Source of the DNA: Pararhodobacter sp.
GTDB taxonomy: Bacteria > Pseudomonadota > Alphaproteobacteria > Rhodobacterales > Rhodobacteraceae
DNA: 59,549 nucleotides
Assembly: GCA_020832665.1 (NCBI GenBank)
Contig: JAFIEG010000020.1
Location: forward strand, 1 to 59,549
Reading direction: 5' to 3'
Each line of letters begins with the position of its first letter. Positions within the stretch are counted from its first letter, which is position 1. The notes under the pieces were generated by a model. That model was given only the letters and a program-made list of their open reading frames with translations. It did no database searches and had not been told where the DNA came from. Of the stretch, positions 2,373 through 39,971 are shown one piece after another. Both the position numbers and the translations under genes were made by a program.

Positions 2373-3581
2373 ATGCAAGCAATGACCCGCCCATCCGATA
2401 CCTATTCGCCGCTGTATTTCCTTGCCGCGCTTGGCGCCGGCGGTCTGGTGGTGACCTTCTTCATGTGGCTGATGTTCTGGATTCCCCATCCCGGCCAGCC
2501 GGTGCCGGTGTTCGAGGATATCGCCGCCGCCTTTGCCGCCGGCTCGCCGCTCGTCAAGGCGATGATCGCCGCGGCCATGGCCGGCATCGCCGGATTTGCC
2601 ATCCTGCATGTGAAATCGCTGGTCTGGAACCTGCGGCGCTTTGCCGAATGGCGGCGCAGCGAGGCTTTCGCCAAATTCGCGAAGACAAACGCGCAAAGCC
2701 AGGTGATGGCGGCGCCGCTGGCGCTGGCGATGGTGGTCAATGTCGGCTTCATCCTTGGCATGGTCTTCGTGCCGGGGCTGTGGAGCGTGGTTGAATACCT
2801 CTTTCCGCTGGCCATGATCGCCTTCATGGCGATCGGCGTCTGGGCTTTTCGCCTTTACGGCGGCTTCATCGGCCGTGTACTGACCGAGGGCGGCTTCAAC
2901 TGTGCGGCCAACAACAATTTCGGCCAGATCCTGCCCGCCTTTGCCTTCTCGATGGTCGGTGTGGGCCTTGCCGCCCCGGCGGCGCTCAGCCTGACGCCGG
3001 CGATTGCCGCCACCGGGCTGGTGCTTTCCACCTTCTTCCTGGTCACCGCCGGGCTGATTGCCGCCGTGGCGCTGGTGCTGGGCATCCGCTCGATGATGGA
3101 GAACGGCGCCAACCCCGAGACCGCGCCGACGCTGATGATCATCGTTCCGCTGGTCACCGTGCTGGGTATTCTGGCGCTGCGTCAGGATCACGGGCTGGGC
3201 GAGCATCTGGCGGCGGGTTCGGTGCCGGGCGAGACGCTGGCCTTCCTCGCCAAGCTGGTTTCGGTGCAGGTGCTGTTCGGCCTGTTCGGCCTGTCGATCC
3301 TGGCGCGCCAGGGCTATGCCGGGCGCTTCCTTTTCGGCCGCGAAAACTCGCCCGGCGCCTATGCGCTGGTCTGCCCCGGGGTCGGCTTTGCGGTGATGAT
3401 GCATTTCTTCATCAACAAGGGCCTTGTCGAGGCCGGGCTGATGGCCAAGTTCGGCCTGGGCTTCTGGGCGCTGACGGCGATGGCGCTCGCCTCGCAGGCG
3501 GCGATGATCTGGCTGGTGCTGCATCTCAACCGCCGCCATTTCGGCGCGACCCGGCAGGCCGAGGCCGTGCCCGCCGAATGA
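2373..3581 (+). CDS. Polytopic membrane protein, TsoY-like
   Basis: A 402-residue inner-membrane protein with about ten hydrophobic segments. It opens with TYSPLYFLAALGAGGL and has PHPGQPVPVFEDI near residue 35 and CAANNNFGQILPAFAFS near residue 175. This looks to me like the 'TsoY family (seleno)protein' annotated in Proteobacteria, of unknown biochemical function; the assignment is from memory. ATG 2373 is chosen because GGAGGA precedes it by 8 bases; upstream in-frame ATGs would read into smc promoter DNA. The gene is monocistronic: an AT-rich palindrome lies upstream and a strong hairpin follows. A SLAC1/TehA-like ten-helix transporter fold is an alternative description. Confidence 0.7.
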   Translation: MQAMTRPSDTYSPLYFLAALGAGGLVVTFFMWLMFWIPHPGQPVPVFEDIAAAFAAGSPLVKAMIAAAMAGIAGFAILHVKSLVWNLRRFAEWRRSEAFAKFAKTNAQSQVMAAPLALAMVVNVGFILGMVFVPGLWSVVEYLFPLAMIAFMAIGVWAFRLYGGFIGRVLTEGGFNCAANNNFGQILPAFAFSMVGVGLAAPAALSLTPAIAATGLVLSTFFLVTAGLIAAVALVLGIRSMMENGANPETAPTLMIIVPLVTVLGILALRQDHGLGEHLAAGSVPGETLAFLAKLVSVQVLFGLFGLSILARQGYAGRFLFGRENSPGAYALVCPGVGFAVMMHFFINKGLVEAGLMAKFGLGFWALTAMALASQAAMIWLVLHLNRRHFGATRQAEAVPAE

Positions 3582-3632: not shown

Positions 3633-3715
3633 CGCAAATGGGGGTCTGCTTGCCCCTGCCGCGCCGTTCTGACACTCTGCCCGGCGCAAGCAACAAGGGG
3701 GCTCAAGAGGGCGGG

Positions 3716-4789
3716 ATGAGTGATTTCCTGATCATCGGCGGCGGCGTCGCCGGGCTTTCGGCCGGGGCGCAGCTGGCCGCGCTGGGCGATGTCGTGGTGG
3801 TCGAGGCCGAGGCCCAGACCGGTTACCACGCTTCGGGCCGCTCGGCCGCGCTTTACGAGGCCGAGTACGGCGCCCCGGCCACGGTTGCGCTGGCCCGCGC
3901 CAGCGGCGAGGCGCTGGCCGAGATGGGCGCGCTCAGCCCGCGCGGGCTCATGGTGGTGGGGCAGGCGCATGAACGCGACGCCTTCGAGCAGGATTGCGCC
4001 GCTCTGCAACTGACCCGCATCAGCCCCGGTGAGGCATTGCAACTCGTGCCGATTCTAAACCGCGAGCGGGTGGCGATGGCCGCCCATAGCGACGCCGCAC
4101 AGAATATCGACACTGATCTGGTGCTGCAAACATGCGCCCGGCACATCCGCGAAAAGGGCGGGCAGATCCGCACCAACGCCCCGGTCACGGCGATTCGCGC
4201 CACCGCGCAGGGCTGGGAGGTTACACTGGGCAATGGCGAGACCATAGTCGCGCGCCAGATCGTCAACGCCGCCGGGGCCTGGGCCGACCGCGTGGCGCAG
4301 CTGGCAGGGTTGCCCGGTATCGGACTGCAACCGCTGCGCCGCTCGATCGCGCAACTGCCGGCGCCCGCGGGGCATGACATTCGCGCCTGGCCGATGACGG
4401 TGAGCGCCGGCGAGACCTGGTATGCCAAACCCGAAGCCGGCAAGTTGCTGGTCTCGCCCGCCGATGAAGACCCGGTCGAGCCGCATGACGCATGGGCCGA
4501 CGACATGGTCATCGCCGAGGGGCTGGCGCGCTACGAGGAAATGGTCACCGTGCCGGTAACACGGGTCGAGGTAACCTGGGCCGGGCTGCGCAGCTTTTCG
4601 CCCGACCGGGCGCCGGTGCTGGGGAGCGACCCGCTCAACCCCGCCTTCCTGTGGTGCGCGGGCCAGGGCGGGCAGGGCTTTCTCTCGGCGCCTGGCGCGG
4701 CGCGGGTTATGGCCGAGGCCGCCGGCGGTACCGCCTCGGGCTTTTCGCCCGAGATCATCGCAGCGCTCAGCCCGGCTCGCTATCGCTGA
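3716..4789 (+). CDS. FAD-dependent D-amino acid dehydrogenase, D-arginine dehydrogenase (DauA)-like
   Basis: A 357-residue DAO-family flavoprotein that would oxidise an amino acid to an imino acid. The Rossmann FAD motif IIGGGVAGLSAG is at residues 5-16, followed by VVVEAEAQTGYHASGRSAA. The second half carries VNAAGAWAD, LRRSIAQ, TWYAKPEAGKLLVSPAD and TWAGLRSFSPD. This pattern, including Arg of LRRS, Tyr of WYAKP and Arg of GLRSF, matches what I know of Pseudomonas DauA, so a preference for basic or hydrophobic D-amino acids is inferred. No dauB (anabolic L-arginine-forming partner) is adjacent. The stop overlaps the next start (TGATG), so the two are co-translated. Confidence 0.8.
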   Translation: MSDFLIIGGGVAGLSAGAQLAALGDVVVVEAEAQTGYHASGRSAALYEAEYGAPATVALARASGEALAEMGALSPRGLMVVGQAHERDAFEQDCAALQLTRISPGEALQLVPILNRERVAMAAHSDAAQNIDTDLVLQTCARHIREKGGQIRTNAPVTAIRATAQGWEVTLGNGETIVARQIVNAAGAWADRVAQLAGLPGIGLQPLRRSIAQLPAPAGHDIRAWPMTVSAGETWYAKPEAGKLLVSPADEDPVEPHDAWADDMVIAEGLARYEEMVTVPVTRVEVTWAGLRSFSPDRAPVLGSDPLNPAFLWCAGQGGQGFLSAPGAARVMAEAAGGTASGFSPEIIAALSPARYR

Positions 4790-13963: not shown

Positions 13964-14869
13964 ATGGATCGACTGACGGAAATGGAAGCTTTCGCCACGG
14001 TAGTTGACCAGGGCGGCTTTACCGATGCCGCGCGAAAGATGGGGATGTCGAAATCCGCCATTTCAAAGCATGTTTCATCGCTGGAAGCACGGCTCGGCGC
14101 GCGTCTGCTCAACCGGACCACCCGCCGCGTCAGCCCCACCGAGATCGGGCTGGTGTATTACGACCGTGCCCGTCGTGTTCTCAACGATGCCGGCGAGGCC
14201 GACAGCATCGTCACCGCGATGCAGGCCGCGCCCTCGGGGCTTTTGCGCATGTCGGTGGTTACCGATTTCGGCGTCGCCTTGCTTTCGCCGGTGCTGGATG
14301 AATTTCTCGCCCAATACCCCGAAATCAGCGTCAACATGGTGCTCAAGAACCGCTATGTCGAGCTGATCTCGGAAGGGTTCGACCTTGCCATCCGTGTCGG
14401 CGAGTTGGAGGATTCGAGCCTGCGCGCGCGGCGTATCTGCGAATCCACCCAGCGGCTGATCGCCGCGCCTTCCTATTTCGAACAGCATGGCCGGCCCACG
14501 CGCATCGACGAGTTGACCGAGCACCGGCTGTTGCATTACTCGAACCAGTCCAGCGCCAATGTCTGGAAAATCATCGCCCCCTCGGGCGAGGAGCGTCAGG
14601 TTCGCGGCACCGGATGGCTGACGGTCAATGACGGGCAGTCGCTGCTCAACGCCGCCATCAAGGGGCTGGGAATAGCCTATCTGCCCAGTTATCTCTATCA
14701 CAAGGCCATGGCCCAGGGGCTGGTGGAGGATGTCATCCCCGACCTGCCCCGCTCGACGCTGGGCATTCACGCCGTCTATCCGCCCGGCCGCTACACCCAG
14801 CCCAAGGTGCGCTCCTTCATCGATTTCCTGGTGGCGAAATTCGCCGACAAGGGCCCCGACTGCTGGTGA
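13964..14869 (+). CDS. LysR-type transcriptional regulator (CrgA-like subgroup)
   Basis: 301 residues. The N-terminal winged helix-turn-helix (MEAFATVVDQGGFTDAARKM, SKSAISKHVSSLEARLGARL) leads to NRTTRRVSPTEIG, characteristic of the CrgA/AaeR/DmlR subgroup. The C-terminal periplasmic-binding-like effector domain runs from ~residue 90 (GLLRMSVVTDFG). MDRLTEMEAF at 13964 is chosen as start; an ATG seven codons upstream is possible. It follows fadH in the same direction and converges on addA, so its target is not evident from position. Confidence 0.93.
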   Translation: MDRLTEMEAFATVVDQGGFTDAARKMGMSKSAISKHVSSLEARLGARLLNRTTRRVSPTEIGLVYYDRARRVLNDAGEADSIVTAMQAAPSGLLRMSVVTDFGVALLSPVLDEFLAQYPEISVNMVLKNRYVELISEGFDLAIRVGELEDSSLRARRICESTQRLIAAPSYFEQHGRPTRIDELTEHRLLHYSNQSSANVWKIIAPSGEERQVRGTGWLTVNDGQSLLNAAIKGLGIAYLPSYLYHKAMAQGLVEDVIPDLPRSTLGIHAVYPPGRYTQPKVRSFIDFLVAKFADKGPDCW

Positions 14870-28015: not shown

Positions 28016-28146
28016 CAAGTGCCCTCCCGCAGAGCACCATCTTGCGAGACGCCACGGCAACGGGCAAGCATTTGGTCAGTGCCAGGTGGGGCCGCTGCGG
28101 TTGTAATCGTCGACCAAGGAAAGTTCAGATCGCGGATGTGGGCACG

Positions 28147-28174
28147 GTTGAGAAACAATGTCTCGTTGAGAAAC
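28147..28174. promoter_or_regulatory. Direct repeat GTTGAGAAAC x2 in a divergent promoter
   Basis: Two identical 10-mers start 18 bp apart (28147-28156 and 28165-28174) between the LuxR-type gene and the feruloyl-CoA synthase locus. An AT-rich stretch (GGTAGATTTACTTTACC at 28210-28226) follows toward the synthase. The repeat may be a regulator site; the binder is unknown. Confidence 0.4.
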
Positions 28175-28281
28175 TCCGGGCAAACCGCTTGCGAGCTGAT
28201 CTCGATCAAGGTAGATTTACTTTACCAGGAAAGTTTTTAAGTCGTGCCTGCGGGGGAGCGGGCGGGCAGAAATGGGGGGGC

Positions 28282-30155
28282 ATGAGCGGCACATCCGGGA
28301 CGATGGGCGCGACGGACGCCACCGCCTGGAAGGGGCGGCTTTTCGCATCGCCGCAGACCATTCGCCGTGAAGGCGCTGACGGGGTGATCTATCTCTCCAG
28401 CGGCATCCGGCCCGGCCCTGCCGCCCGATGCGTTGGTGACTGGCTCGAAACTGCAGCGCAACTATCGCCCCAACGGATTTTCATGGCCGAACGCGACGGG
28501 CCCGATGGTTGGCGCAGGATGGGCTATGCCGCTTTTCGCACCCGCGCACGCGAGATCGGCGACTGGCTGCTTTCGGCGGGCGCGACAGCCGACCGGCCAG
28601 TGGCTATCCTTTCCGAGAACTCCATTGACCACGCGCTGCTTGCCTTCGCGGCGATGCATGTCGGCATCCCGTCGCCACGGTCTCGCCGGCCTATTCGCTG
28701 ATGTCCAGCGACCACGGCAAGCTCAGGGCGATGATCGATCTGCTCGATCCCGGCGTCATCTTCGTTTCCGACCCTGCCGCCTATGCTGCCGCGCTTGGCG
28801 CGCTTGGTGGCAGGCACGGCGCGCGCCTTGTCGCCTCGAATCCCGGCGAGGGCGTCACCCCGACAAGCGTGATCGAGGGCGACGCCAACAGCGCGCGGGT
28901 CCGCGCCGCTTTCGAGGCGATCACGCCGGATACGGTAGCGCGGCTTCTCTTCACCTCGGGCTCGACCGGCAGCCCCAAGGTGGTCATCAACACCCACCGC
29001 ATGCTCACCTCCAGCCAGGAGGCGCATCTGGCGGTCTGCCCGCTTCTGGCCGAGGAGCCGCCGGCGCTGGTGGACTGGCTGCCCTGGAGCCACACATTCG
29101 GCGCCAATTTCACCACCAACACGGTGCTGCGCAACGGCGGCACAATGTATATCGATGACGGCAAGCCCATGCCCGGCATGATCGAGCGCACGGTGCGCAA
29201 CATGATGGAGATCCGCCCCACCGCCTGTTTCAACGTGCCGCGCGGTTATGACCTTCTGCTGCAGGCGCTGGAAGGCGATGCGGCATTTCGCGAGATCTTC
29301 TTCAACATGCGCTACCTGTTCTACGCTGCGGCTGCCCTGCCCGAAAGCATATGGGCCCGGCTGCGTGCGCTGTCAGAGGAAACCACGGGCCGCGCCATGC
29401 CGATGGTCTCGGCCTGGGGATCGACCGAAACCGCGCCGCTGGCCACCTATTGCCACTTCCAGGCCGACCGCAGCGGCAATATCGGGGTGCCGGTGCCAGG
29501 GGTGAGCCTGAAACTCGTGCCGGCGGGAGAAAAGCTGGAAGTGCGGGTGAAGGGGCCAAATGTCACCCCGGGTTATTACCGCCGGCCCGAGCTTTCCGCG
29601 CAGGCCTTCGACGAGGAAGGATATTACGGCATCGGCGATGCCGTGCGCCTTGCCAACCCCGACGACCCGAATGCGGGCCTTTTCTTCGACGGGCGGGTGA
29701 GCGAGGACTTCAAGCTCACCTCGGGCACCTGGGTCAGCGTCGGCGCGCTGCGTCTTGCCGGCATCGATGCGCTGGCACCCGTCGCGCAGGATATCGTCAT
29801 CGCCGGGCACGACCGCCACGCGGTCGGCTTTCTGATCTTCCCCAACGAGGCCGCCTGCCGCCGCCTTGCCGGGGCTGATGCCGAAACGCCGCTTTCCCTT
29901 GTGCTGGCCCATGCGGCGGTTCGCGAGCATGTCGCGCAGGGGCTGGCGCAACTGAAGGAAGCGGGCAAGGGGGCGTCGCGCCAGGCGGCGCGCGCCCGGC
30001 TGCTCGCCGCCCCGCCAAACCCGGACAAGGGCGAGATCACCGACAAGGCCTATCTCAACCAGCGGCATGTGCTGAGCAACCGCGCCGATGATGTCGCCCT
30101 GCTCTATGGCGACGACCCGGGCGAATTCATTTCACCCTTTCAGTCGAAAGGTTGA
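28282..30155 (+). pseudogene. Feruloyl-CoA synthase, frameshifted
   Basis: An AMP-forming acyl-CoA ligase of the feruloyl-CoA synthase type, which activates hydroxycinnamates with CoA. The N-terminal part (GPAARCVGDWLETAAQL, ERDGPDGWRRMGYAAFR) reads in one frame to HVGIP near 28670. The rest (VATVSPAYSLMSSDHGKL, LFTSGSTGSPKVVINTHRML, SAWGSTETAPLAT, DGRVSEDFKLTSGTWVSVG) continues in another frame through 30155. Restoring one base at ~28671 (CCGTCGCC to CCGGTCGCC) joins them into a normal-length ~620-residue enzyme. Either the gene is disabled or the base was lost in sequencing. A truncated thiolase follows directly, which favours real decay. Confidence 0.85.
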
Positions 30156-30445: not shown

Positions 30446-31015
30446 ATGGCGAATGGTGGCGCAATGAACCGCGATCAGCCGATCACGGCGCGGGATGTCG
30501 ATTATGGCGGGCTCGAAAACGCCGCGGGTTTCCTTCTGCGCCTGGCCCAGCTGCAGGTCTTTGCGCATTTCTACAAGGCATTCGAACAGCATGAGTTGCG
30601 GCTGGGCGCGATTTCGGCACTGATCATCATTCGGCACAACCCCGGCATCCGGCATGGGGTGCTGGCCGAAGTGCTGTCGATAAAGCTGGCGCACACAACG
30701 AAAATGCTGAAATCGCTGGAAAGCCAGGGGCTCGTCGTGCGCCATCAGCCCGCCCATGACCGCCGCTCCGTCGAATTGCGACTGACCGAGGCCGGCGAGG
30801 CCCTGACCCGCGACATGCAGGAACAGGTGCGCCGGCATAAAGACCTGTCCGTGGCCGGCCTGAGCGAGCGCGAGCGCAACCAGCTCAAGCGCCTGCTGCG
30901 CAAGCTCACGGGCGTTCCGGCCTATCCACCGCGCCATCTCGCCACCACGCAGTTGCCCGCGACACAAGCGCAGGACAACCGGCCGCCGAGAAAAAACCGC
31001 GCGCGTCGCAGCTGA
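30446..31015 (+). CDS. MarR-family regulator, probably for hydroxycinnamate genes
   Basis: 189 residues. A winged-helix MarR core: LGAISALIIIRHNPGIRHGV, LAEVLSIKLAHTTKMLKSLE, LVVRHQPAHDRRSVELRLTEAG. MarR proteins of this type (CouR, FerR) control p-coumarate/ferulate genes in response to the acyl-CoA; the location beside a feruloyl-CoA synthase supports that role by inference. The start is 30446 or 30464. An AT-rich stretch with GATTC-N6-GATTC (30313-30328) lies upstream. The C terminus is basic and proline-rich. Confidence 0.85.
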   Translation: MANGGAMNRDQPITARDVDYGGLENAAGFLLRLAQLQVFAHFYKAFEQHELRLGAISALIIIRHNPGIRHGVLAEVLSIKLAHTTKMLKSLESQGLVVRHQPAHDRRSVELRLTEAGEALTRDMQEQVRRHKDLSVAGLSERERNQLKRLLRKLTGVPAYPPRHLATTQLPATQAQDNRPPRKNRARRS

Positions 31016-31143: not shown

Positions 31144-31311
31144 ATGTCATGCGGCGCGCGCTTCAGCAAACCGCTGATGACCTTGGCAACGCTCTTCATA
31201 ATCGGCATTGCCGGGCTTTCCGGCTTCGTCGCCGGGCAGATCAGACGAATCTGGCATCAGAAACTGACCTGCTGCCCCTTGCCCCGCACCGCGGCGGCTT
31301 CGTTGACATGA
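31144..31311 (+). CDS. Possible 55-residue single-pass membrane peptide
   Basis: Short open frame with a hydrophobic core LMTLATLFIIGIAGLSGFVA followed by the basic QIRRIWHQK, a plausible membrane segment. Its last third lies antisense to the 3' end of the ornithine-cyclodeaminase-like gene, and no convincing ribosome site precedes it. It could be a real small protein, a gene remnant, or chance. Confidence 0.25.
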   Translation: MSCGARFSKPLMTLATLFIIGIAGLSGFVAGQIRRIWHQKLTCCPLPRTAAASLT

Positions 31312-32234
31312 TGCGCCACGGCCAGATCCTGCGCGGTAATGCCGAGCGAACGATAAAGCGTGATCTCTCCGTCGCTGCCGCGCCCGGGCGCCTGGGCGTT
31401 CAACACCTCGCCGATTTCGGCGCGCAGATGGTCCTGGCCGATGCTGCCATCGCCGATCATGGCGACGATCTCGCCTGCCTGCGCGAAGAAGGAGGGGCGG
31501 TAATCGCAATACAGCGCGGCGCGCTGCACCACCGCGTCATCAACCTCGCGCTTGGCGGGGATCGAGGCGCCGACGATATTGAGATGCTGACCCGCTTCCA
31601 GCCATTCACCCAACAACACCGGCGTGGCACTGCTGGTCACGGTGCAGACGATATCGGCACGGGCCACCGCCGCGCGCGCATCACTGCCGTGGGAGATACT
31701 CAGCCCGGGGTGGCGCGCCGCGGCGTGTGTGGCGAAATCGGCGGCCTTTTCGGCCCGGCGCCCGACGATGCGCAGCTCGGCCACCGGGCGCACCGCCAGC
31801 ATGGCCGCAAGGTGGTGTTCGGCCTGCTCGCCGGTGCCGATGATTGTGAGCACGCGCGCATCCTCGCGTGCCAGCGCGCGCGTGGCCACGGCGCTGGCGG
31901 CGGCGGTGCGGATGGCGGTCAGAAGCCCGGCATCCATCATCGCCACGGCGCCGCCGGTCTCGGCCTCGAACAGCACCACCGCGCCGCGATGGCCCGACAG
32001 CCCGCGCGCGGGGTTTTCGGGGAACAGACTGACCAGCTTCACCCCATAGCAATGCGGCTCGGACAGCGCGCCCGACATCACCCCCATCATGTTCTTGCCG
32101 CCCACCGGCACAACATGGCGCAGCGGCAGTTCCGCCCCGCCGGCCGATACGCTGCGCATCACCGAATCCACCACCTCGATCGCCTGATCCATGGGCAGCA
32201 GCCCGGCAATGTCGTCATTGCTCAGAACAATCAT
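31257..32234 (-). CDS. Ornithine cyclodeaminase / mu-crystallin family enzyme
   Basis: 325 residues. NAD(P)-dependent family acting on amino acids or cyclic imines (ornithine cyclodeaminase, ketimine reductase, alanine dehydrogenase). The Rossmann motif is VLTIIGTGEQAEHHLAAML (~residue 125); the substrate-side region GVKLVSLFPENPARGLSGHRG and IVGASIPAKREVDD are family-typical. Reaction not assignable from sequence. It is the last gene of a six-gene operon, overlapping the hydrolase gene by 4 bp, so it probably handles an amino acid released by the upstream hydrolases. Confidence 0.9.
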   Translation of the reverse strand: MIVLSNDDIAGLLPMDQAIEVVDSVMRSVSAGGAELPLRHVVPVGGKNMMGVMSGALSEPHCYGVKLVSLFPENPARGLSGHRGAVVLFEAETGGAVAMMDAGLLTAIRTAAASAVATRALAREDARVLTIIGTGEQAEHHLAAMLAVRPVAELRIVGRRAEKAADFATHAAARHPGLSISHGSDARAAVARADIVCTVTSSATPVLLGEWLEAGQHLNIVGASIPAKREVDDAVVQRAALYCDYRPSFFAQAGEIVAMIGDGSIGQDHLRAEIGEVLNAQAPGRGSDGEITLYRSLGITAQDLAVAHHVNEAAAVRGKGQQVSF

Positions 32235-33088
32235 GCCTCAAGCTCCTTCCCGCTGCCCTGCCAGTCGCTGGCGAGCGGCTCCAGCCCCAGCCGCGCGGCG
32301 ATCAGGCCGGAATACAGATCAGGCCGCAGCAGATAGGGGAAATGCCCACCATGGCGGAACCCAAAGCAGGTCGCGCCGGGCAACCGGGCGCGCACCGCTT
32401 TACTCATCTCGGGCGGGATCAGCGGGTCGTCGGCGGCGTCGATCACTGTCAGCAAGCCGGGTTCGTGCGCCACCGGCGGCAGTTCGGGCCCGCGCTTGAG
32501 CGCATTGAGGCGCGTGCGCATCTCGCCTTCGGGAATACGCCCGGCCACCTCGCCCATGAGGAATTCCACCAGATCGGCCTGATCGGGCCGCGCCTGGCCC
32601 CAGGCCTGCATCGCATCCATGAAACCCGCGCGCAGGGCCTCGATGGGTGCGGCGTCGAGATCGGCGGAATAGGGCGGGCGGTTGTGGATGCCCTGTACCG
32701 AATGCAGCGTGTTGGCAGCAAACAGGTGGCAGACGCGGGAAGGGTGCGCGCCGGCCATGTACTGCGCCAGATAGCCGCCCAGCGACGAGCCCAGCACCGC
32801 CGCGCTGTCGATGCCGCGCGTATCGAGAAGCGCGCACAGGTCATCCGCCCAATCGGCAATACCGCCCGAGGCGGGGTAGGTGAGCGCGATCACGCGCAGC
32901 CGGGGCGAGAGCGCCGTTATCTGCTGCCAGAAGATATCGGCCCTTCCCAGCGTGCCGGGGATCAGCACCAGCGCCGGGCCGTCTCCCGCGGTGTCGATCA
33001 CCCCCCATTCGCGGGCGTTGAGCGTTTCGCGGGCTTCGCGGTGGTGGGCGGTAAAGGCGTTTCGGGCCTCGATCAGGGGATTGCTCAT
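32231..33088 (-). CDS. Alpha/beta-fold hydrolase
   Basis: 285 residues. Oxyanion region LVLIPGTLGRADIFWQQ, nucleophile elbow VLGSSLGGYLAQ (Ser in GSSLGG), acid in VIDAADDPLIPP and His in FRHGGHFPYLLRP complete a triad. Could be an esterase, amidase or C-C hydrolase; the substrate is unknown. The 4-bp overlaps with both neighbours show tight translational coupling within the TRAP/M81 operon. Confidence 0.9.
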   Translation of the reverse strand: MSNPLIEARNAFTAHHREARETLNAREWGVIDTAGDGPALVLIPGTLGRADIFWQQITALSPRLRVIALTYPASGGIADWADDLCALLDTRGIDSAAVLGSSLGGYLAQYMAGAHPSRVCHLFAANTLHSVQGIHNRPPYSADLDAAPIEALRAGFMDAMQAWGQARPDQADLVEFLMGEVAGRIPEGEMRTRLNALKRGPELPPVAHEPGLLTVIDAADDPLIPPEMSKAVRARLPGATCFGFRHGGHFPYLLRPDLYSGLIAARLGLEPLASDWQGSGKELEA

Positions 33089-34545
33089 GCGAAGGGGTTC
33101 TCCTGCCTGGGCCAGTAATCCGGGGCGCGGTTGCGATAGGGGATATTGGCGAAATCGGGGGTAATGGCGCCGGGGCTGGCCACCGGGACAATCTGCGCGG
33201 CGATGGGGGCAAATCCGGCGCGGTAATGGTTGGAGGATTTCACGCAGATGAAGCGCTTGTCGTCCAGCGTAATGCCCAGCCCGGTAAAGGCCTCGGGGTG
33301 AAAGGTCTGGCCACGGCTGTCATTGACGACAATGTCGATATCGCCGTGGGGGCCGGTTGACAGCCAGATGGCATTGCCCAGCGGCACCGGCAGCGAGCCG
33401 AAACGCTGAGTCAGACCGCTGGCAATGCTGCGCACCGTGACCTCGAGATCGAGCGGATCGCCCGACATGGGGCCGCATTTGCCGCCAAGCCGCAGGGCCA
33501 GGCGCGCGCCCTCGCCGGCCTCGGTGCAAATACGCACGGCGACCGGGTCCCAGAAGATGCCGGTGGCGAAATTGGCCATGCCGCGCTCGAGCATCGCGCG
33601 CAGAAGGAAGGTGGCATCCGAAGGCGCGCCGCCGCCGGCATTGTCGGACATGTCGGCCAGCACCACCGGGCCGGCAGGCGCGGCTTCGCCTAGATTGAGC
33701 GCTTCGGGGATGGCATGCACCGGCTGGAAGATGGCGTCGCGCTCGGCAAAGAGCTTTTCGCCCAGCTCGCGCGCCAGACGTTCAGCCAGCGCTGCATCGC
33801 CATCGGTGACGGCCAGCGCGCGCGCGCCGGTGCGGGGGTGATCGCCCCAGGGAAAACCATGCGCCAGCGACAGCGACAGCACGCCCTTCTCGGCCTCCCG
33901 CGCGATCATCGCATCGACATAGGCGCGCATCGGGCCCTCTGGTGTGGGCATGGCCGTGATCATGCGGCAATCGAAATCGCGCATTACCGGGTTGCAGCGC
34001 CCTTCGGCGGTATCCGCGACGAGGGTGAACAGCTCTTCGGCGCGCGCCTCGATATCGATATGCGGATACTCCTTGAAGCAGATCAGCGCCGTGGCCTTTT
34101 CGAGCATCAGCTCGGTCAAATGGCAATGCGGGTCAAGCAACCCGCCAATCTTCGCCTCGGGTGCGATCTCGCGGATGCGGGCGATCAGATCCCCCTCGCA
34201 ATCGTCATAGCCATCGGCGATCATGGCGCCGTGCAGGCCCAGAAGCACCATATCGACCGGCATGGCGGCGCGCAGATCAATCAGGATTTCATCACGCAGC
34301 GCCTCAAAGACCAGGCGCACGGTGGGCCCGGCAGGCTGCGCGAAGGTGGCCAGGCTCTCGGCCACCTGCCAGCCGCGCGCCTCGGCGCGCCGGCGCCACA
34401 GATGCAGCGCGCCGGTCCAGTAGGTGACGGGGTGGCGCGTGGCATCGCCATGGTATAGCCCGCCTTCCTCGAAGCCGGCCATGCCAGTGGGCAGGGGCGA
34501 GAAGCTGTTGGTTTCGGTCGCCAGGCCGGCGATGAAGAGTTTCAT
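33085..34545 (-). CDS. M81-family metallopeptidase (MlrC-like)
   Basis: 486 residues. Starts MKLFIAGLATETNSFSP, the M81 N terminus. LHGAMIADGYDDCEGDL (104-120) and GLLDPHCHLT (135-144) carry probable metal ligands. The C-terminal domain has LADMSDNAGGGAPSDATFLL. MlrC of this family cleaves linearised microcystin; most members have unknown amide or peptide substrates. Location between TRAP transporter genes and two further catabolic enzymes implies it attacks the imported compound. It lacks a signal peptide, so it is cytoplasmic. Confidence 0.93.
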   Translation of the reverse strand: MKLFIAGLATETNSFSPLPTGMAGFEEGGLYHGDATRHPVTYWTGALHLWRRRAEARGWQVAESLATFAQPAGPTVRLVFEALRDEILIDLRAAMPVDMVLLGLHGAMIADGYDDCEGDLIARIREIAPEAKIGGLLDPHCHLTELMLEKATALICFKEYPHIDIEARAEELFTLVADTAEGRCNPVMRDFDCRMITAMPTPEGPMRAYVDAMIAREAEKGVLSLSLAHGFPWGDHPRTGARALAVTDGDAALAERLARELGEKLFAERDAIFQPVHAIPEALNLGEAAPAGPVVLADMSDNAGGGAPSDATFLLRAMLERGMANFATGIFWDPVAVRICTEAGEGARLALRLGGKCGPMSGDPLDLEVTVRSIASGLTQRFGSLPVPLGNAIWLSTGPHGDIDIVVNDSRGQTFHPEAFTGLGITLDDKRFICVKSSNHYRAGFAPIAAQIVPVASPGAITPDFANIPYRNRAPDYWPRQENPFA

Positions 34546-34642
34546 TCGGTTATTATCCTTGTCGTCTCGGTCATGCCCGGGAAAAAACGCGTCGTCGCGC
34601 CTTTGAAAAGCCTTTGCACGCCCACTCTCCCCGGCCCGCCCT

Positions 34643-35179
34643 TCATGCGGCGCTGCTCGGCCCGTTTGCCGGTTCGGTCAGACGCATGGCCAGCGCAGCG
34701 ATCACATGCAGGGCGATCAGCGCAAACGCCAACGGCACGGCGGCGGTGAACCAGATCATCGAGAGCGGGATCATCTCGGCGGTGCGGTCGAGCGAGCGGC
34801 CCAGAAAGCCGCGCGCCATGTTCATGTTGGGCCCAAAGAGCGAGAACCAGATCACCGGCGCCACGAAGATCAGCGCCCCGGCGGCGCGGATCAGCGCCAG
34901 CCCCTTGCCGGGCAGCCCGCGCAGCAATACCGCCTGCGGAAAAAGCGTGGGATCAACCCCGGCGCGGAACGCCGCCGAGGCACCCAGCATGCCGGCCCAG
35001 ACCATGGAGCGGCGCGCCAGCTCCTCGGTCCAGACCGGCGGCGCGGCCAGCGCGTAGCGCGCCACCACCTGCCAGCCCGCGGCAAAGACCATCACCAGCA
35101 CCGCCAGCACCGCGCCCCACAGGGCCACGGTGTTCAGCGCCGCCGACAGACGGTCAAGGCCGCGGGCCAGCCGGCGCAT
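34643..35179 (-). CDS. TRAP transporter small permease (DctQ)
   Basis: 178 residues with four membrane helices (TVALWGAVLAVLVMVFAAGW; a second helix after WTEELARRSMVWAGML; LIFVAPVIWFSLFG; MIWFTAAVPLAFALIALHVI). The motif VWTEELARRSMVWAGMLGAS is the DctQ signature. The start MRRLARGLDRLSAAL (35179) lies 4 bp after the dctP stop. It works with the dctM and dctP products as a sodium-driven importer. Confidence 0.92.
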   Translation of the reverse strand: MRRLARGLDRLSAALNTVALWGAVLAVLVMVFAAGWQVVARYALAAPPVWTEELARRSMVWAGMLGASAAFRAGVDPTLFPQAVLLRGLPGKGLALIRAAGALIFVAPVIWFSLFGPNMNMARGFLGRSLDRTAEMIPLSMIWFTAAVPLAFALIALHVIAALAMRLTEPANGPSSAA

Positions 35180-35183
35180 GGGG

Positions 35184-36155
35184 TCAGCGCCCCGCCGCTT
35201 CGCGCCATTGTGCAAGTTGCTCGGGCGTGACGATCTGCTCATAGGTGACCATCGAGGCCTGGCGGAATTCCTCGCGCGCCTCGTCGCTCAGCTCCACCAC
35301 CGCGACATCGGCCTCGCGCAACTGATCAATCACACCTACCTGCGTGGGCAGCCATTCACGGTTGGCGGCGCGCGCCGCCTCGACGGCGGCATCGACCACT
35401 TCGCGGTCGGCCTCGCCTAGTCCCTGATACCAGTCTTCCGAGGCGATCGCGATGCGCAGTGAGGGAGCGATGGCGGCATCGGTGAAGTGGCGGATGAACT
35501 CGGTATGGCCAAACAGAAGCGGCACGAAGGCCGGGTTCAGATAGCCATCGGCAACGCCGGTTTGCAGCGCGTTGGGCACCTCGGCCCAGTTGACGATGGT
35601 GCCGGCCGCGCCCCAGGCCTGGAACAGCGCGATCTGGCTTTCATCGAGCGCGCGCATGCGCAGCCCTTCCATGTCGGCCATACTGTTGATCGCGCGGCGG
35701 GTGTTGAAAATGCCGGTGGCCGCGCCGACCACGGTGACATCGAGCACCCGCACGCCGGCCGGTGTCAGCGCCTCGTTTATCCGCTCGAGCATGCCGCCTT
35801 CGAGAAGCGCGCGATCCACTTCTTCCATGTCGGCAAAGAAATAGGGCAGGCGCAGGCCGAAGATCAGCGTATCGACCGAAGCCACGATATTGAGCGGCGA
35901 CATGCCCACTTCCAGGAGGCCCTGGGTTACCTGGTCGAACACCTCGTCATCGCCGCCCAGCGCGCCGCGCTGGAATTCCTGCGCCTCGATGCCGTTCTCG
36001 TTCAGATGCCCCGCAAAGGCATGTGCCCAGACATAACTGCCCGAGCCCTCCAGATCGGGCGGGCTGTCGAGCGAGATGGAAACCTGCGCCATCGCCGCGC
36101 CGGGCAATGCCAGCGCCCCGGTCAGCGCCGCGGCTTTCAGAATTTGGTGTGTCAT
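35184..36155 (-). CDS. TRAP transporter substrate-binding protein (DctP)
   Basis: 323 residues with a Sec signal peptide (LKAAALTGALALPGAAMAQ) and the TRAP DctP fold: YVWAHAFAGHLNENGI, VFDQVTQGLLEVG, LRMRALDESQIALFQAWGA and WAEVPNALQTGVADGYLNP. The LRMR arginine usually pairs with a carboxylate in the ligand, so the substrate probably bears a carboxyl group. It lies between dctM and dctQ in the operon. Confidence 0.94.
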   Translation of the reverse strand: MTHQILKAAALTGALALPGAAMAQVSISLDSPPDLEGSGSYVWAHAFAGHLNENGIEAQEFQRGALGGDDEVFDQVTQGLLEVGMSPLNIVASVDTLIFGLRLPYFFADMEEVDRALLEGGMLERINEALTPAGVRVLDVTVVGAATGIFNTRRAINSMADMEGLRMRALDESQIALFQAWGAAGTIVNWAEVPNALQTGVADGYLNPAFVPLLFGHTEFIRHFTDAAIAPSLRIAIASEDWYQGLGEADREVVDAAVEAARAANREWLPTQVGVIDQLREADVAVVELSDEAREEFRQASMVTYEQIVTPEQLAQWREAAGR

Positions 36156-36195
36156 TCTTCTTCTCCCTTGTTGATCAGTTCGATTATGCGCGGCG

Positions 36196-37482
36196 CTAGC
36201 CGCCTATGAAACCCAGCTGCCGCGGCAGCCAGAGCGAGATTTCAGGCATCATCACCAGAAGCGCCAGCACTCCGATCTGCAGAATGAAGAAGGGCATGAT
36301 GGCGCGCGCCAGGGTCCAGTAATTCACCCCCGTCACCGCCGAGACCATCAGCAGGCAGCCCCCCAGCGGCGGCGAGATCAGCCCGATACACAGGTTGAAG
36401 CAGATCACGATGCCCAGATGCACCGGATCGGCGCCCTGCAATATGGCCACCGGCGCCAGAAGCGGCACCAGTAAAAACAGCGCCACCGCCGTATCCAGCA
36501 CCATGCCGGCGATGATGAAGATCGCCATCATCAGGAACATGTATTGCGCCGGGCCCAGCCCCATCGCGTTCACCTGCGCGGCGATGGCCTCGGGGATGCG
36601 CTCGAGCGCCGCCAGATGGCCCAGCGCCGCCACCGCCGCGATGAGCATGAAGATCGCCCCCGACAGCATGGCGGTGCGCTTGAGCGCCTCGGACAGTTCG
36701 GCTAGGCCGATGCGCGTGTAGAAGGCGCTGGCGCCGACGGCGGCGATGACGGCCACCGCGGCCGCCTCGGTCGGGGTCATCAGGCCAAAGACGATGCCGC
36801 CCAGGATGATCGCCGGGATCGACAGCGCCGGCAGGGCATTGGCCAGCGTGCGCGGCAGCGGCGGGATATCGGCGCGTTCCAGGCGCGGATGGCTGTCACG
36901 CCAGGCAAAGAAGGCATTGGCTGCAAACAGCGCCGCAGCCAGCACCAGGCCCGGCATGATGCCGGCGATGAACAGCGCGGTGACCGAGGTGCTCATGATC
37001 GCGCCATAGAAGATTAGGATGATCGAGGGCGGCACGATCGGCCCGATGATCGACGAGGCAGCGGTGATGGCGCTGGCATAGGGCAGGGAATAGCCGCGCT
37101 CGCGCATCGCCGGCACCAGCGTGTTGGAAAGCGCCGCCGAATCGGCCACCGCCGAGCCCGAGATGCCGGCAAAAAAGACCGAGGTCATGATGTTGACATG
37201 CCCCAGCCCGCCGCGGATGCGCCCCACCATTGCCATCGCCAGGTTGATCAGCACCCGCGTCACGCCACCGCGATTCATGATCTCGCCGGCGAGGATGAAA
37301 AGCGGCATCGCCATCAGCGCGAAGACATCGATGCGCGAGAAAATCTGCTGCGGCAGCACGGCCAGAAAGCGCGTGCGGTCGGTGGCGATGAAGGTCAGCA
37401 CCGCCGCGCCGCCGATCACATAGGCAATCGCCAGCCCCGAGGCGAGAAGGATCAGCGCAATGACCGGGACAAGCTGGATCAT
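36196..37482 (-). CDS. TRAP transporter large permease (DctM)
   Basis: 428 residues with about 12 hydrophobic segments. DctM motifs: RIDVFALMAMPLFILAGEIM, FFAGISGSAVADSAALS, SSIIGPIVPPSIILIFYGA, GLMTPTEAAAVAVIAA and LISPPLGGCLLMVSAVTG. The start MIQLVPVIALILLASG (37482) is the natural N terminus. It is the first gene of the operon; the M-P-Q order differs from the usual P-Q-M. The dyad operator lies ~120 bp upstream. Confidence 0.95.
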   Translation of the reverse strand: MIQLVPVIALILLASGLAIAYVIGGAAVLTFIATDRTRFLAVLPQQIFSRIDVFALMAMPLFILAGEIMNRGGVTRVLINLAMAMVGRIRGGLGHVNIMTSVFFAGISGSAVADSAALSNTLVPAMRERGYSLPYASAITAASSIIGPIVPPSIILIFYGAIMSTSVTALFIAGIMPGLVLAAALFAANAFFAWRDSHPRLERADIPPLPRTLANALPALSIPAIILGGIVFGLMTPTEAAAVAVIAAVGASAFYTRIGLAELSEALKRTAMLSGAIFMLIAAVAALGHLAALERIPEAIAAQVNAMGLGPAQYMFLMMAIFIIAGMVLDTAVALFLLVPLLAPVAILQGADPVHLGIVICFNLCIGLISPPLGGCLLMVSAVTGVNYWTLARAIMPFFILQIGVLALLVMMPEISLWLPRQLGFIGG

Positions 37483-37600
37483 GCCGCGCGGGCCTGTGTT
37501 TTCGGGGCCGGGGCGGCGATGCCGGCGCCAGCCACGACACCCTGCCAGATTTCGATCTGCCGCGCCAAGCGTCCCTCCAGGTTGGGGGAAAGGTAGCACT

Positions 37601-37642
37601 GGTTTTCCGATGCGAAAAGCGGTTTTTCGTTTCGGAAAACCA
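37601..37642. promoter_or_regulatory. Large dyad of two TTTTC-N6-GAAAA boxes before the TRAP operon
   Basis: Box 1 TTTTCCGATGCGAAAA (37603-37618) and box 2 TTTTCGTTTCGGAAAA (37624-37639) are each palindromic at their ends. Together they form a 42-bp dyad whose arms (GGTTTTCCGA..CGAAAA) match at 16 of 18 positions around a short centre. The shape fits a tetrameric repressor such as the IclR family. It is 119 bp upstream of dctM; no IclR gene lies in the window. Confidence 0.65.
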
Positions 37643-37832: not shown

Positions 37833-39971
37833 TCAGCGCTGCGCCTTGGCCCGCTGACGCCAGGCATGCAGCACTGGCTCGGTATAACCCGAGGGCTGCT
37901 CGCGGCCGCGAAACACCAGATCGCAGGCGGCGGCAAAGGCCGGCCCATCAAAGCCCGGCGCCATCGGCCGATAGGCCGGGTCGCCTTCGTTCTGACGATC
38001 CACCACCGCCGCCATCTTCTTCATCGCCGCCATCACCCGCTCTTCACTGATTACGCCGTGATGCAGCCAGTTGGCCAGCGCCTGCGAAGAGATGCGGCAG
38101 GTGGCGCGGTCTTCCATCAGCCCCACATCATTGATGTCGGGCACCTTGGAACACCCCACCCCCTGATCGATCCAGCGCACGACGTAGCCCAATATGCCCT
38201 GCGCGTTGTTCTCGATCTCGCGCGTCAACTCCTCCTCGGTCCAGTTGCGCCCCTCGGCCAGCGGGATGCTCAACAACTGCCCCAGCGTGGCGCGCGGCCC
38301 GCCTGCGGCGATCTCGGCCTGACGCGCCGGCACATCGACGGCATGATAATGCATCGCATGCAGCGTCGCCGCCGTGGGGCTGGGCACCCAGGCGCAGTTG
38401 GCGCCGGCTTTCGGATGCGCGATCTTGTCGCGCAGCATGTCGGCCATCAGATCGGGCATTGCCCACATCCCCTTGCCGATCTGCGCGCGCCCGGCCAGCC
38501 CGCAGGCCAGCCCGATATCGACATTGCGATCTTCATAGGCCTTGATCCAGGCAGCGCCCTTCATCTCGCCCTTGGGCACCATCGGCCCGGCCTCCGTCGA
38601 GGTGTGGATCTCGTCGCCGGTGCGGTCCAGAAAGCCGGTATTGATGAAGGCCACGCGGTGGTGCGCGGCACGGATGCATTCCTTCAGATTGACGCTGGTG
38701 CGGCGTTCCTCGTCCATGATGCCCAGCTTGACGGTGTAGCGCGCGAGACCCAGCGCCGCCTCGACCCGGGTGAAAATCTCGTCGGCAAAGGCCACCTCGT
38801 CGGGCCCGTGCATCTTGGGCTTGACCACATAGACCGAACCCGTGTGCGAATTGCGCATCCCGTCGCGTTTCTTCAGGTCGTGCATGGCGCAAAGCGTGGT
38901 GACCATGGCATCGAGCAGGCCTTCGGGCGCCTCGTTTCCCTCGCCATCGAGCACGGCGGGGTTGGTCATCAGATGCCCGACATTGCGCACCAGCATCAGC
39001 GCCCGTCCCTTGAGCGTGATCGTGCCGCCATCGGGCGCGGTGAAAGCCAGATCGGGGTTGAGCCGGCGGGTAAGGGGCTTGCCGCCCTTGACAAGGCGCT
39101 CTTCAAGATCGCCCTTCATCAGCCCCAGCCAGTTGCCCCAGGCCAGCACCTTGTCCTCGGCATCGACGGCGGCAACCGAATCCTCGCAATCCATGATCGA
39201 GGACATCGCCGCTTCCAGCCGGATATCGGCCACATGCGCGAGGTCTCCGCGGCCTATCGGGTGGGCGGCGTCGATCTCGATGATCACATGCAGCCCGTTA
39301 TTACGCAGCACGATGGCAGAGGGCGCCGCCGCATCGCCGGCGAAACCCGCGAACTGCGCGGGCTCACGCAGCGCGGGCACCAGCGCGGCGCCCTCGACCC
39401 GGTAGCCGCTGACGCCCGTATGGCTGCCTTCAGCCAGCGGCGCGGCCTCGTCGAGAAACGCCTTCGCCCGGGCCACCACACGCGCGGCGCGGGCCTTGTC
39501 GAAACCGCTTTCGAGGGGCAGATCGCCCAGCGCATCGGTGCCGTAAAGCGCATCATAGAGCGAGCCCCAGCGCGCATTGGCCGCGTTGAGCGCATAGCGC
39601 GCATTCATCACCGGCACCACCAGTTGCGGACCCGCGACACTGGCGATCTCGGGATCAACATTGGCGGTCTCGATCGTGAAATCGGGGCCTTCATCGACCA
39701 GATAGCCGATCTCGCGGAGGAACGCCTCATAGGCGGCGGCGTCATGGGGCTGGCCGCGCCGGGCGATGTGCCAGTCGTCGATTGTCTGTTGCAGCGCCGC
39801 GCGGCGCTCGAGCAGCGCCCGGTTGCGCGGGCCCAGATCACCGATCAGCCCCGCCAGCCCCGACCAGAACGCCGCCGGCGCCACGCCGCTGCCCGGCAGG
39901 GCGCGGTTCTCGATGAACTCGACCATCCTTGCATCGACCTGCAGCCCCGCGCGCTCGATTCTTTCGCTCAT
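37833..39971 (-). CDS. glcB: Malate synthase G
   Basis: 712 residues, close to the usual ~720. Condenses glyoxylate with acetyl-CoA to malate. Signatures include [75 protein letters not shown] and [11 protein letters not shown]. The start [13 protein letters not shown] (39971) has GGAGGAG 9 bases ahead. A single gene with its own upstream operator-like repeats; no isocitrate lyase or glycolate oxidase gene is adjacent, so the source of glyoxylate is not shown by context. Confidence 0.97.

Follow-up and report, generated by a model that had tools for sequence, protein, structure and literature searches.

A TRAP transporter and M81 metalloenzyme locus of Pararhodobacter, probably the body of a split operon for a D-amino-acid derivative

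The six-gene locus

The stretch of DNA analysed here (hereafter the window) comprises 59,549 nucleotides of Pararhodobacter sp. (GenBank assembly GCA_020832665.1, contig JAFIEG010000020.1), in which a tripartite ATP-independent periplasmic (TRAP) transporter and three enzymes, including a metalloenzyme of the M81 family and a member of the ornithine cyclodeaminase (OCD)/mu-crystallin family, are encoded by six genes on one strand (Table 1). A first-pass annotation made from the letters alone had already proposed these genes, their coordinates and the overlaps of 4 base pairs (bp) that join M81 to the alpha/beta hydrolase and the hydrolase to the OCD gene, all of which was confirmed by open reading frames (ORFs) and Pfam matches. 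The remaining genes are separated by gaps of 40 bp (dctM-dctP), 4 bp (dctP-dctQ) and 97 bp (dctQ-M81). All six proteins exceed the curated Pfam cut-offs, and the transporter is complete in the window, with DctP, DctQ and DctM all present by Pfam. In NCBIfam, DctQ has no match and the other five proteins have family-level ones, that of DctM being TIGR00786 (350 bits, above its cut-off of 268).

Table 1. Features of the locus, with positions in the window (aa, amino acids; FAD, flavin adenine dinucleotide)
Feature	Coordinates	Strand	Evidence
OCD/mu-crystallin family enzyme, 325 aa, probable imine reductase	31257..32234	-	Pfam OCD_Mu_crystall 241 bits
Alpha/beta hydrolase, 285 aa	32231..33088	-	Pfam Abhydrolase_1 61 bits
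M81 (MlrC-like) metallo-amidohydrolase, 486 aa	33085..34545	-	Pfam DUF1485/M81 263 + MlrC_C 173 bits
dctQ, TRAP small permease, 178 aa	34643..35179	-	Pfam DctQ 57 bits
dctP, TRAP solute-binding protein, 323 aa, motif RMRALDESQ	35184..36155	-	Pfam DctP 147 bits
dctM, TRAP large permease, 428 aa	36196..37482	-	Pfam DctM 321 bits
Leader ORF, 29 codons, putative relic of the 5' end of a lost FAD gene	37479..37568	-	Alignment to FAD gene starts
Tandem palindromic operator, two TTTTC-N6-GAAAA sites beside a TGCTA element	37603..37639	.	Pattern scan

Conservation in relatives

Relatives of the locus were collected by searching the M81 protein against 295 genomes of the family at E ≤ 1e-60, which gave a match in 51 of them. 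Around the best matches 38 stretches were fetched, together with two from contig C29 of the window's own genome, and a scan of named genome contigs added further loci (the best 80 of 581). Genes were called with a codon-score caller trained on GC-rich hits, and the resulting operon table holds 108 distinct M81 genes, the window itself and sequence duplicates being left out; each entry is one M81 gene, and operons with two of them are counted twice. The caller failed or undercalled at some loci (for instance L063, L168 and L222) and called no M81 gene in eight of the 80 scanned loci, so absences there prove nothing, and absence of the FAD gene cannot be judged in L089, L103 and L134, which start inside the operon.

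Eleven operons carry an FAD dehydrogenase gene followed by DctM, DctP, DctQ, M81, hydrolase and OCD (L036, L038, L039, L040, L041, L082, L085, L087, L088, L090 and L157), and those with names bear the labels Pararhodobacter, Rhodobacter, Rhizobiaceae, Notoacmeibacter and Aquibium. Culturable strains with the complete operon include Aquibium sp. ELW1220 (L088) and Pseudodonghicola flavimaris IC7 (L091). As relatives repeat the same six genes in the same order, the set in the window is no chance neighbourhood. Moreover, the nearest locus among the best 80 of 581, L082 from a Pararhodobacter metagenome-assembled genome, whose M81 protein is 86% identical to that of the window, holds seven genes and the regulator in one piece. 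Rare co-occurrence of enzymes and transporter had been named beforehand as the observation that would count against the annotation, and the table of 108 M81 genes bore the co-occurrence out. The gene order M-P-Q, which had been called unusual, is so in comparison with P-Q-M systems such as the clade of PDB entry 4n8g, but it is the rule within the family, where 34 of the 35 TRAP operons with M81 show it (the exception is L042, in which only DctP was called).

Some variants deserve a word. In L035, of the same genus as the window genome, FAD, M81, hydrolase and OCD genes occur with the XRE-cupin regulator and no TRAP genes stand between FAD and M81. The sister operons L055, L058 and L060 carry extra genes for RidA and an indolepyruvate ferredoxin oxidoreductase-like protein, and the first two also one for a GlcD-type FAD enzyme; such additions would suit a pathway that oxidises 2-oxo and 2-hydroxy acids derived from peptides of D-amino or D-hydroxy acids.

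A probably displaced operon head and its operator

In the relatives, an FAD gene of about 378 codons precedes dctM, overlapping it by 4 bp in L038, and a divergent gene for an XRE-cupin regulator stands before it. Both are missing in place at the window locus, and the pathway annotated as a six-gene unit, although its genes are real, is incomplete there. They are found on another contig of the same genome, C92, which carries an FAD ortholog 64% identical to the L038 protein and an XRE-cupin gene divergent from it, without a TRAP permease or a DctP of this type next to them. A tree of 42 rows places the C92 FAD protein as sister to the operonic one of L082 (support 99/96), and the two regulators are 85% identical. 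A contig-end artefact was considered as the cause of the split and rejected, the operon lying mid-window and the FAD/regulator pair deep inside the 45.9-kb C92.

The two parts share an operator. Before dctM, two 16-bp palindromes (37603-37618 and 37624-37639) follow each other at 21 bp from start to start with no mismatch, and across the 4.19-Mb genome this tandem occurs only there and ahead of the FAD gene of C92, with 0 occurrences of the reversed control pattern. Single TTTTC-N6-GAAAA sites number three in the window, where 100 shuffles gave a mean of 0; the third lies at 3331. Among 29 intergenic regions between XRE and FAD genes (L040/L091 and L042/L092 being the same loci from two collections), the best tandem pair had 0-2 mismatches in 15, 3 in 5, 4 in 8 and 6 in 1, compared with 130 control divergent intergenics in which none had two or fewer, one had 3 and three had 4. 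The same tandem operator at both parts makes a common regulator probable, and the window body and the C92 pair would probably belong to the same regulon.

A TTG start was assumed for the leader ORF, which overlaps the dctM start (ATGA). The FAD gene starts of L082 and C92 align with its first half at scores of 37 and 43, respectively, and none of 2000 shuffles reached either score. Taken together with the C92 copy, this remnant of an FAD gene start suggests that the gene was lost in place, a copy with the regulator persisting elsewhere in the genome. A symmetrical relic of both gene ends was also considered and rejected, as the 5' end alone is significant and the 3' match rests largely on dctM itself.

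Splits and losses of this kind are also seen in other loci. L037 is an operon without FAD and OCD whose best operator pair before dctM has 11 mismatches, and its genome has an FAD gene directly followed by OCD on another contig, where the 19 kb fetched contain no exact half-site of the operator. L054 has one operator site at 14137 and an FAD remnant of 139 codons (103 bits to the L060 FAD protein by BLAST, no Pfam match), the FAD match in its genome reaching only 43%, and the genome of L045 (completeness 87) gave no FAD match at 1e-60. The head missing from the window and the mere remnant and 43% match of L054 could thus be taken to indicate that the window operon is a decaying leftover with no working pathway, the C92 pair serving another purpose. 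We regard this as very unlikely, since the six genes are all open and of full length, the operator is perfect, the coupling overlap with dctM is kept, and the C92 pair has a matching operator of which the genome holds no third tandem copy.

The FAD enzyme and the configuration of its substrate

Against the PDB, the L038 FAD protein scores 337 bits with the D-arginine dehydrogenase DauA (3nyc) and 335 with a second DauA construct. In DauA (PaDADH), E87 and E246 contact the guanidinium of the substrate and R222 and R305 its carboxylate, as described in part of PMC11193025. An alignment of 17 FAD proteins of the present family shows R222, R305 and Y249 kept in all and Y53 in 15, the C92 protein having all four residues of this DauA-type site. 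In the same 17 proteins H48 is always replaced by L, I or V, and E87 is always lost (A, V, T or I), unlike in a D-arginine dehydrogenase, with E246 kept in 15. The conservation of R222, R305 and Y249 and the loss of E87 make D-amino acids the likely substrates, D-arginine not being an obvious choice. The evidence thus points to a D-configured amino acid, a possibility absent from the first-pass annotation.

On a different reading, the imported compound would derive from an L- or achiral amino acid, as its N-acyl or amide form, and the FAD enzyme would be a broad one of the sarcosine- or glycine-oxidase-like kind, the D-configuration being irrelevant. In NCBIfam the FAD protein is indeed matched best by ThiO, though at 60 bits where the cut-off is 251, and M81 enzymes are also found beside peptide ABC transporters and M20 hydrolases. 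This appears unlikely, given that the best PDB match other than DauA, a sarcosine oxidase, scores 57 bits against the 337 of DauA, and that a D-aminoacylase-type enzyme recurs in ten sister operons (see below).

A second, more distant DauA-like FAD protein (Pfam DAO, 42% identical to that of L038) is encoded 26 kb away in the window, at 3638-4789 on the plus strand, and a single TTTTC-N6-GAAAA site (3331-3346) lies about 300 bp before its gene.

The OCD-family enzyme as a probable imine reductase

Membership of the OCD/mu-crystallin superfamily is clear for the OCD protein (PF02423, 241 bits against a cut-off of 24), and in the PDB it is matched best by a pyrroline-2-carboxylate reductase (6t3e, 177 bits) and an archaeal alanine dehydrogenase (1omo, 161 bits). 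Its score for ornithine cyclodeaminase proper is 150 of the 350 bits of the equivalog cut-off (PRK07589), and its NCBIfam matches EutC, BhcD and LhpI also lie below theirs, so that assignments as an ectoine, iminosuccinate or ornithine-cyclodeaminase enzyme were rejected. Eight further OCD loci were inspected outside the main set. In two genomes (G062 and G070) an FAD-OCD pair stands apart from TRAP and M81, the OCD gene coming directly after FAD in both and an adenine-deaminase-like gene preceding the pair in G070. Four others are hydrolase-OCD loci, among them one that starts inside an M81 gene at a contig end and one, L220:9571-10809 (contig C22 of genome G031), in which the pair follows an M20-type peptidase gene in the stead of M81; in another the hydrolase is truncated and a single stop interrupts the OCD frame. 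Of the rest, one could not be gene-called, and the other holds a distant OCD copy (47%) in the vicinity of a RidA match and of a further FAD-type gene. The pairing with an FAD enzyme and the reductase and dehydrogenase found as best PDB matches make the supposed cyclodeaminase of the annotation, rather, a probable imine reductase.

The distribution of RidA bears on the same step. DauA is described as releasing an imine, with Rid2 and Rid3 acting on iminoarginine and DauB then yielding the L-amino acid (part of PMC5619798). In the operon table OCD occurs in 17 entries and RidA in eight (five operons), and never both together, as expected if the two act on the same imine.

Retention of E246 in 15 of the 17 FAD enzymes, the pyrroline-2-carboxylate reductase as best PDB match and the appearance of EutC, BhcD and LhpI below cut-off are all compatible with a cyclic or cationic substrate (D-ornithine, D-proline, a hydroxyproline-type or an ectoine-like compound), for which the OCD protein would be a true cyclodeaminase or a pyrroline carboxylate reductase. 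We hold this to be quite unlikely: no NCBIfam cut-off is passed by the protein, no proline or ectoine gene appears among the scored gene kinds of the operons (the unnamed genes there were not identified), and S224 is invariant (8/8) at a position where 1omo has an Asp, which we take to be the catalytic residue of cyclodeaminases.

The hydrolytic enzymes

The M81 protein belongs to the M81/MlrC family, with both domains far above their cut-offs (PF07364, 263 against 22.8 bits; PF07171, 173 against 27.2), and matches microcystinase C (PDB 7ylq) over nearly its full length with 331 bits. D138, H140 and H162 of the D-x-H...H motif, presumably the zinc ligands, align with 7ylq and are invariant in 18 of 18 sequences. 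As microcystinase MlrC proper the protein does not qualify, with 348 bits against the NCBIfam cut-off of 999 (NF041767). The Glu of the Adda-Glu bond is D-configured. MlrC frees Adda by cutting this bond (part of PMC12474180), and the M81 activities described in parts of that paper and of PMC5852478 are those of MlrC on linear microcystin, its tetrapeptide and other middle-sized peptides.

In the alpha/beta hydrolase, S102, D220, D221 and H249 are invariant among 15 aligned proteins, and no PDB sequence matched it at 1e-8. A role could not be taken from the fold, as the predicted model (predicted local distance difference test, pLDDT, 94) matches generic hydrolases, esterases, an enol-lactonase and RutD among its 50 best hits. 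In ten sister operons, an amidohydrolase of the deacylase-like kind takes the place of hydrolase and OCD, accompanied in nine by a CobW-type GTPase; the one such enzyme tested, that of L043, has N-acyl-D-glutamate deacylase (101 bits) and D-aminoacylase (82 bits) as best PDB matches. Hydrolase and deacylase-like enzyme never stand in the same operon of the table.

The solute-binding protein and its candidate ligand

By sequence and by fold (model pLDDT 88), the best PDB matches of DctP are 4n8g and 4ngu, which are presumably complexes with D-Ala-D-Ala; a literature search on their ligands found nothing within the results listed. A motif RxRAxDxxQ is present in all 39 DctP entries of the operons (35 distinct) and in 4n8g, has K for the first R in 4ngu and is absent from the three other PDB proteins aligned. 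The window DctP, with its [RK]xRAxDxxQ motif, thus bears the mark of the 4n8g/4ngu clade and is the only one to do so among the 26 PF03480 loci of its genome. Three of 398 genomes encode close relatives of 4n8g (68-73% identity), the fourth matching genome being that of the window at 37%, and a VanX-like gene follows dctM in all three ortholog loci. The one VanX-like protein scored reached 77.5 bits to D-alanyl-D-alanine dipeptidase, with an equivalog cut-off of 176. A dipeptide of the D-Ala-D-Ala type is the leading candidate for the imported ligand, and a tentative one, held with less than even confidence.

A further TRAP locus of the same genome, L169 (genome G000, contig C29:20000-33000), holds, besides two M81 genes and one of LysR type, dctP-Q-M, behind which come Ord-like, OrtA and OrtB genes of the 2,4-diaminopentanoate pathway.

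Proposed pathway and its weighing

Altogether, we consider it probable, by a modest measure, that the six genes are the body of a split seven-gene operon for import and degradation of a D-amino-acid derivative. Its head, the divergent XRE-cupin regulator and the DauA-family FAD D-amino-acid dehydrogenase, would have been separated onto C92. The TRAP transporter would import a carboxylate containing an amide-bound D-amino acid, either a D-dipeptide such as D-Ala-D-Ala or an N-acyl-D-amino acid, and the M81 metalloenzyme would hydrolyse the amide in the cytoplasm. The freed D-amino acid would then be oxidised by the FAD enzyme to an imino acid, which the OCD-family enzyme would reduce with NAD(P)H to the L-amino acid. 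The alpha/beta hydrolase may provide an extra or alternative cleavage, the second hydrolytic step of the annotation being putative. Gene content, co-occurrence, relic, shared operator and residue conservation are computed observations, from which the catalytic steps, the ligand and the regulation in trans are inferred. In this regard, the annotated unit for transport and degradation of an amide- or peptide-like carboxylate, with subsequent processing of the released amino acid, finds support.

Several observations weigh against the split D-amino-acid operon as just described. No scored partner is found in the operon for 44 of the 108 M81 genes, L084 and L095 have the operon body without an FAD gene, and the region before dctM gives no significant match to the FAD 3' end (630 of 2000 shuffles). 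The FAD-OCD pairs of G062 and G070 show no exact TTTTC-N6-GAAAA in the 19.0 and 17.0 kb fetched, and three of the eight further OCD loci have hydrolase-OCD without an adjacent FAD gene, a fourth being cut off before the FAD position, so that the OCD enzyme may be as much a partner of the hydrolase as of the FAD enzyme. The kept E246, a guanidinium contact in PaDADH, would allow a basic D-amino acid as substrate. As for the ligand, identity between the window DctP and 4n8g is only 27-28%, and the DctP of C29 is closer to 4n8g (37%) yet lacks the motif and lies among the 2,4-diaminopentanoate genes Ord, OrtA and OrtB. The RidA subfamily is described as inactive on iminoarginine in vitro (part of PMC5619798). 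Finally, the MlrC-bearing strain B-9 consumed N-acetyl-L-phenylalanine within 24 h and left the D-form remaining at 96 h (part of PMC5852478), and MlrC proper is therefore unlikely to be a general N-acyl-D-amino-acid hydrolase.

On a wider scale, D-amino acids make up a large part of refractory bacterial organic nitrogen. M81 enzymes are widespread, and their recurrent link with DauA-type, D-aminoacylase-like and imine-reductase enzymes offers them a testable everyday role in D-amino-acid recycling. A possible extension, which we hold with less than even confidence, is that the ordinary job of this M81 clade is that of a D-specific dipeptidase or amidase feeding a D-to-L inversion free of pyridoxal phosphate (FAD dehydrogenase plus OCD-family imine reductase), by which Alphaproteobacteria would eat cell-wall D-Ala-D-Ala and kindred D-peptides. 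The microcystin cleavage by MlrC would then be a late specialisation, and the unit could be split while being held together by the shared operator. The probable split operon with its shared operator would also exemplify a pathway torn apart and perhaps still under common control. Marine Alphaproteobacteria are reported to grow on D-amino acids (part of PMC4836201), a report not used for the reading given here.

Flanking genes

Both flanks of the locus look unrelated to it. On the upstream side, malate synthase G is encoded at 37833-39971. On the downstream side there is a convergent gene for a MarR-type regulator (30464-31015), and next to it one that was judged by eye to be acyl-CoA synthetase-like. 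The latter (about 28320-30155, plus strand) has an apparent change of reading frame near 28700 (ORFs 28042-28701 and 28701-30155) and four stops in a straight reading of 28323-30155, and may be a pseudogene or an assembly error.

Comparison with known systems

A literature search on the gene set found, within its results, no description of an operon joining TRAP, M81 and DauA. DauB presumably belongs to the OCD/mu-crystallin family. The dauBAR system for D-arginine racemisation in Pseudomonas aeruginosa resembles the present one in combining a DauA-family FAD dehydrogenase with a second enzyme, DauB, that carries D- to L-amino acid (part of PMC5619798). It differs in that TRAP, M81, hydrolase and XRE-cupin control are added here and the guanidinium-binding E87 is gone, and in that DauB is described there as acting on the keto acid, whereas an imine is proposed here. 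BhcD (iminosuccinate reductase) and archaeal alanine dehydrogenase share with the window enzyme the OCD family and the proposed imine-reduction chemistry, but the window enzyme, at 191 of 500 and 215 of 409 bits, falls short of the equivalog cut-off in both cases.

MlrC (7ylq) is of the same two-domain family and has the same D-x-H...H motif, whereas the window M81 protein scores far below microcystinase and sits in a TRAP operon. The TRAP system of 4n8g (Csal_0660) offers the closest solved DctP by sequence and fold, with RxRAxDxxQ in common; unlike the window locus, it has the order P-Q-M, a LysR-type gene in two of three ortholog loci and a VanX-like peptidase in the place of M81. The system proposed here combines catabolism fed by a TRAP transporter with a D-to-L inversion like that of DauA and DauB; M81 would be its D-amide hydrolase, and in this strain the system is probably split.

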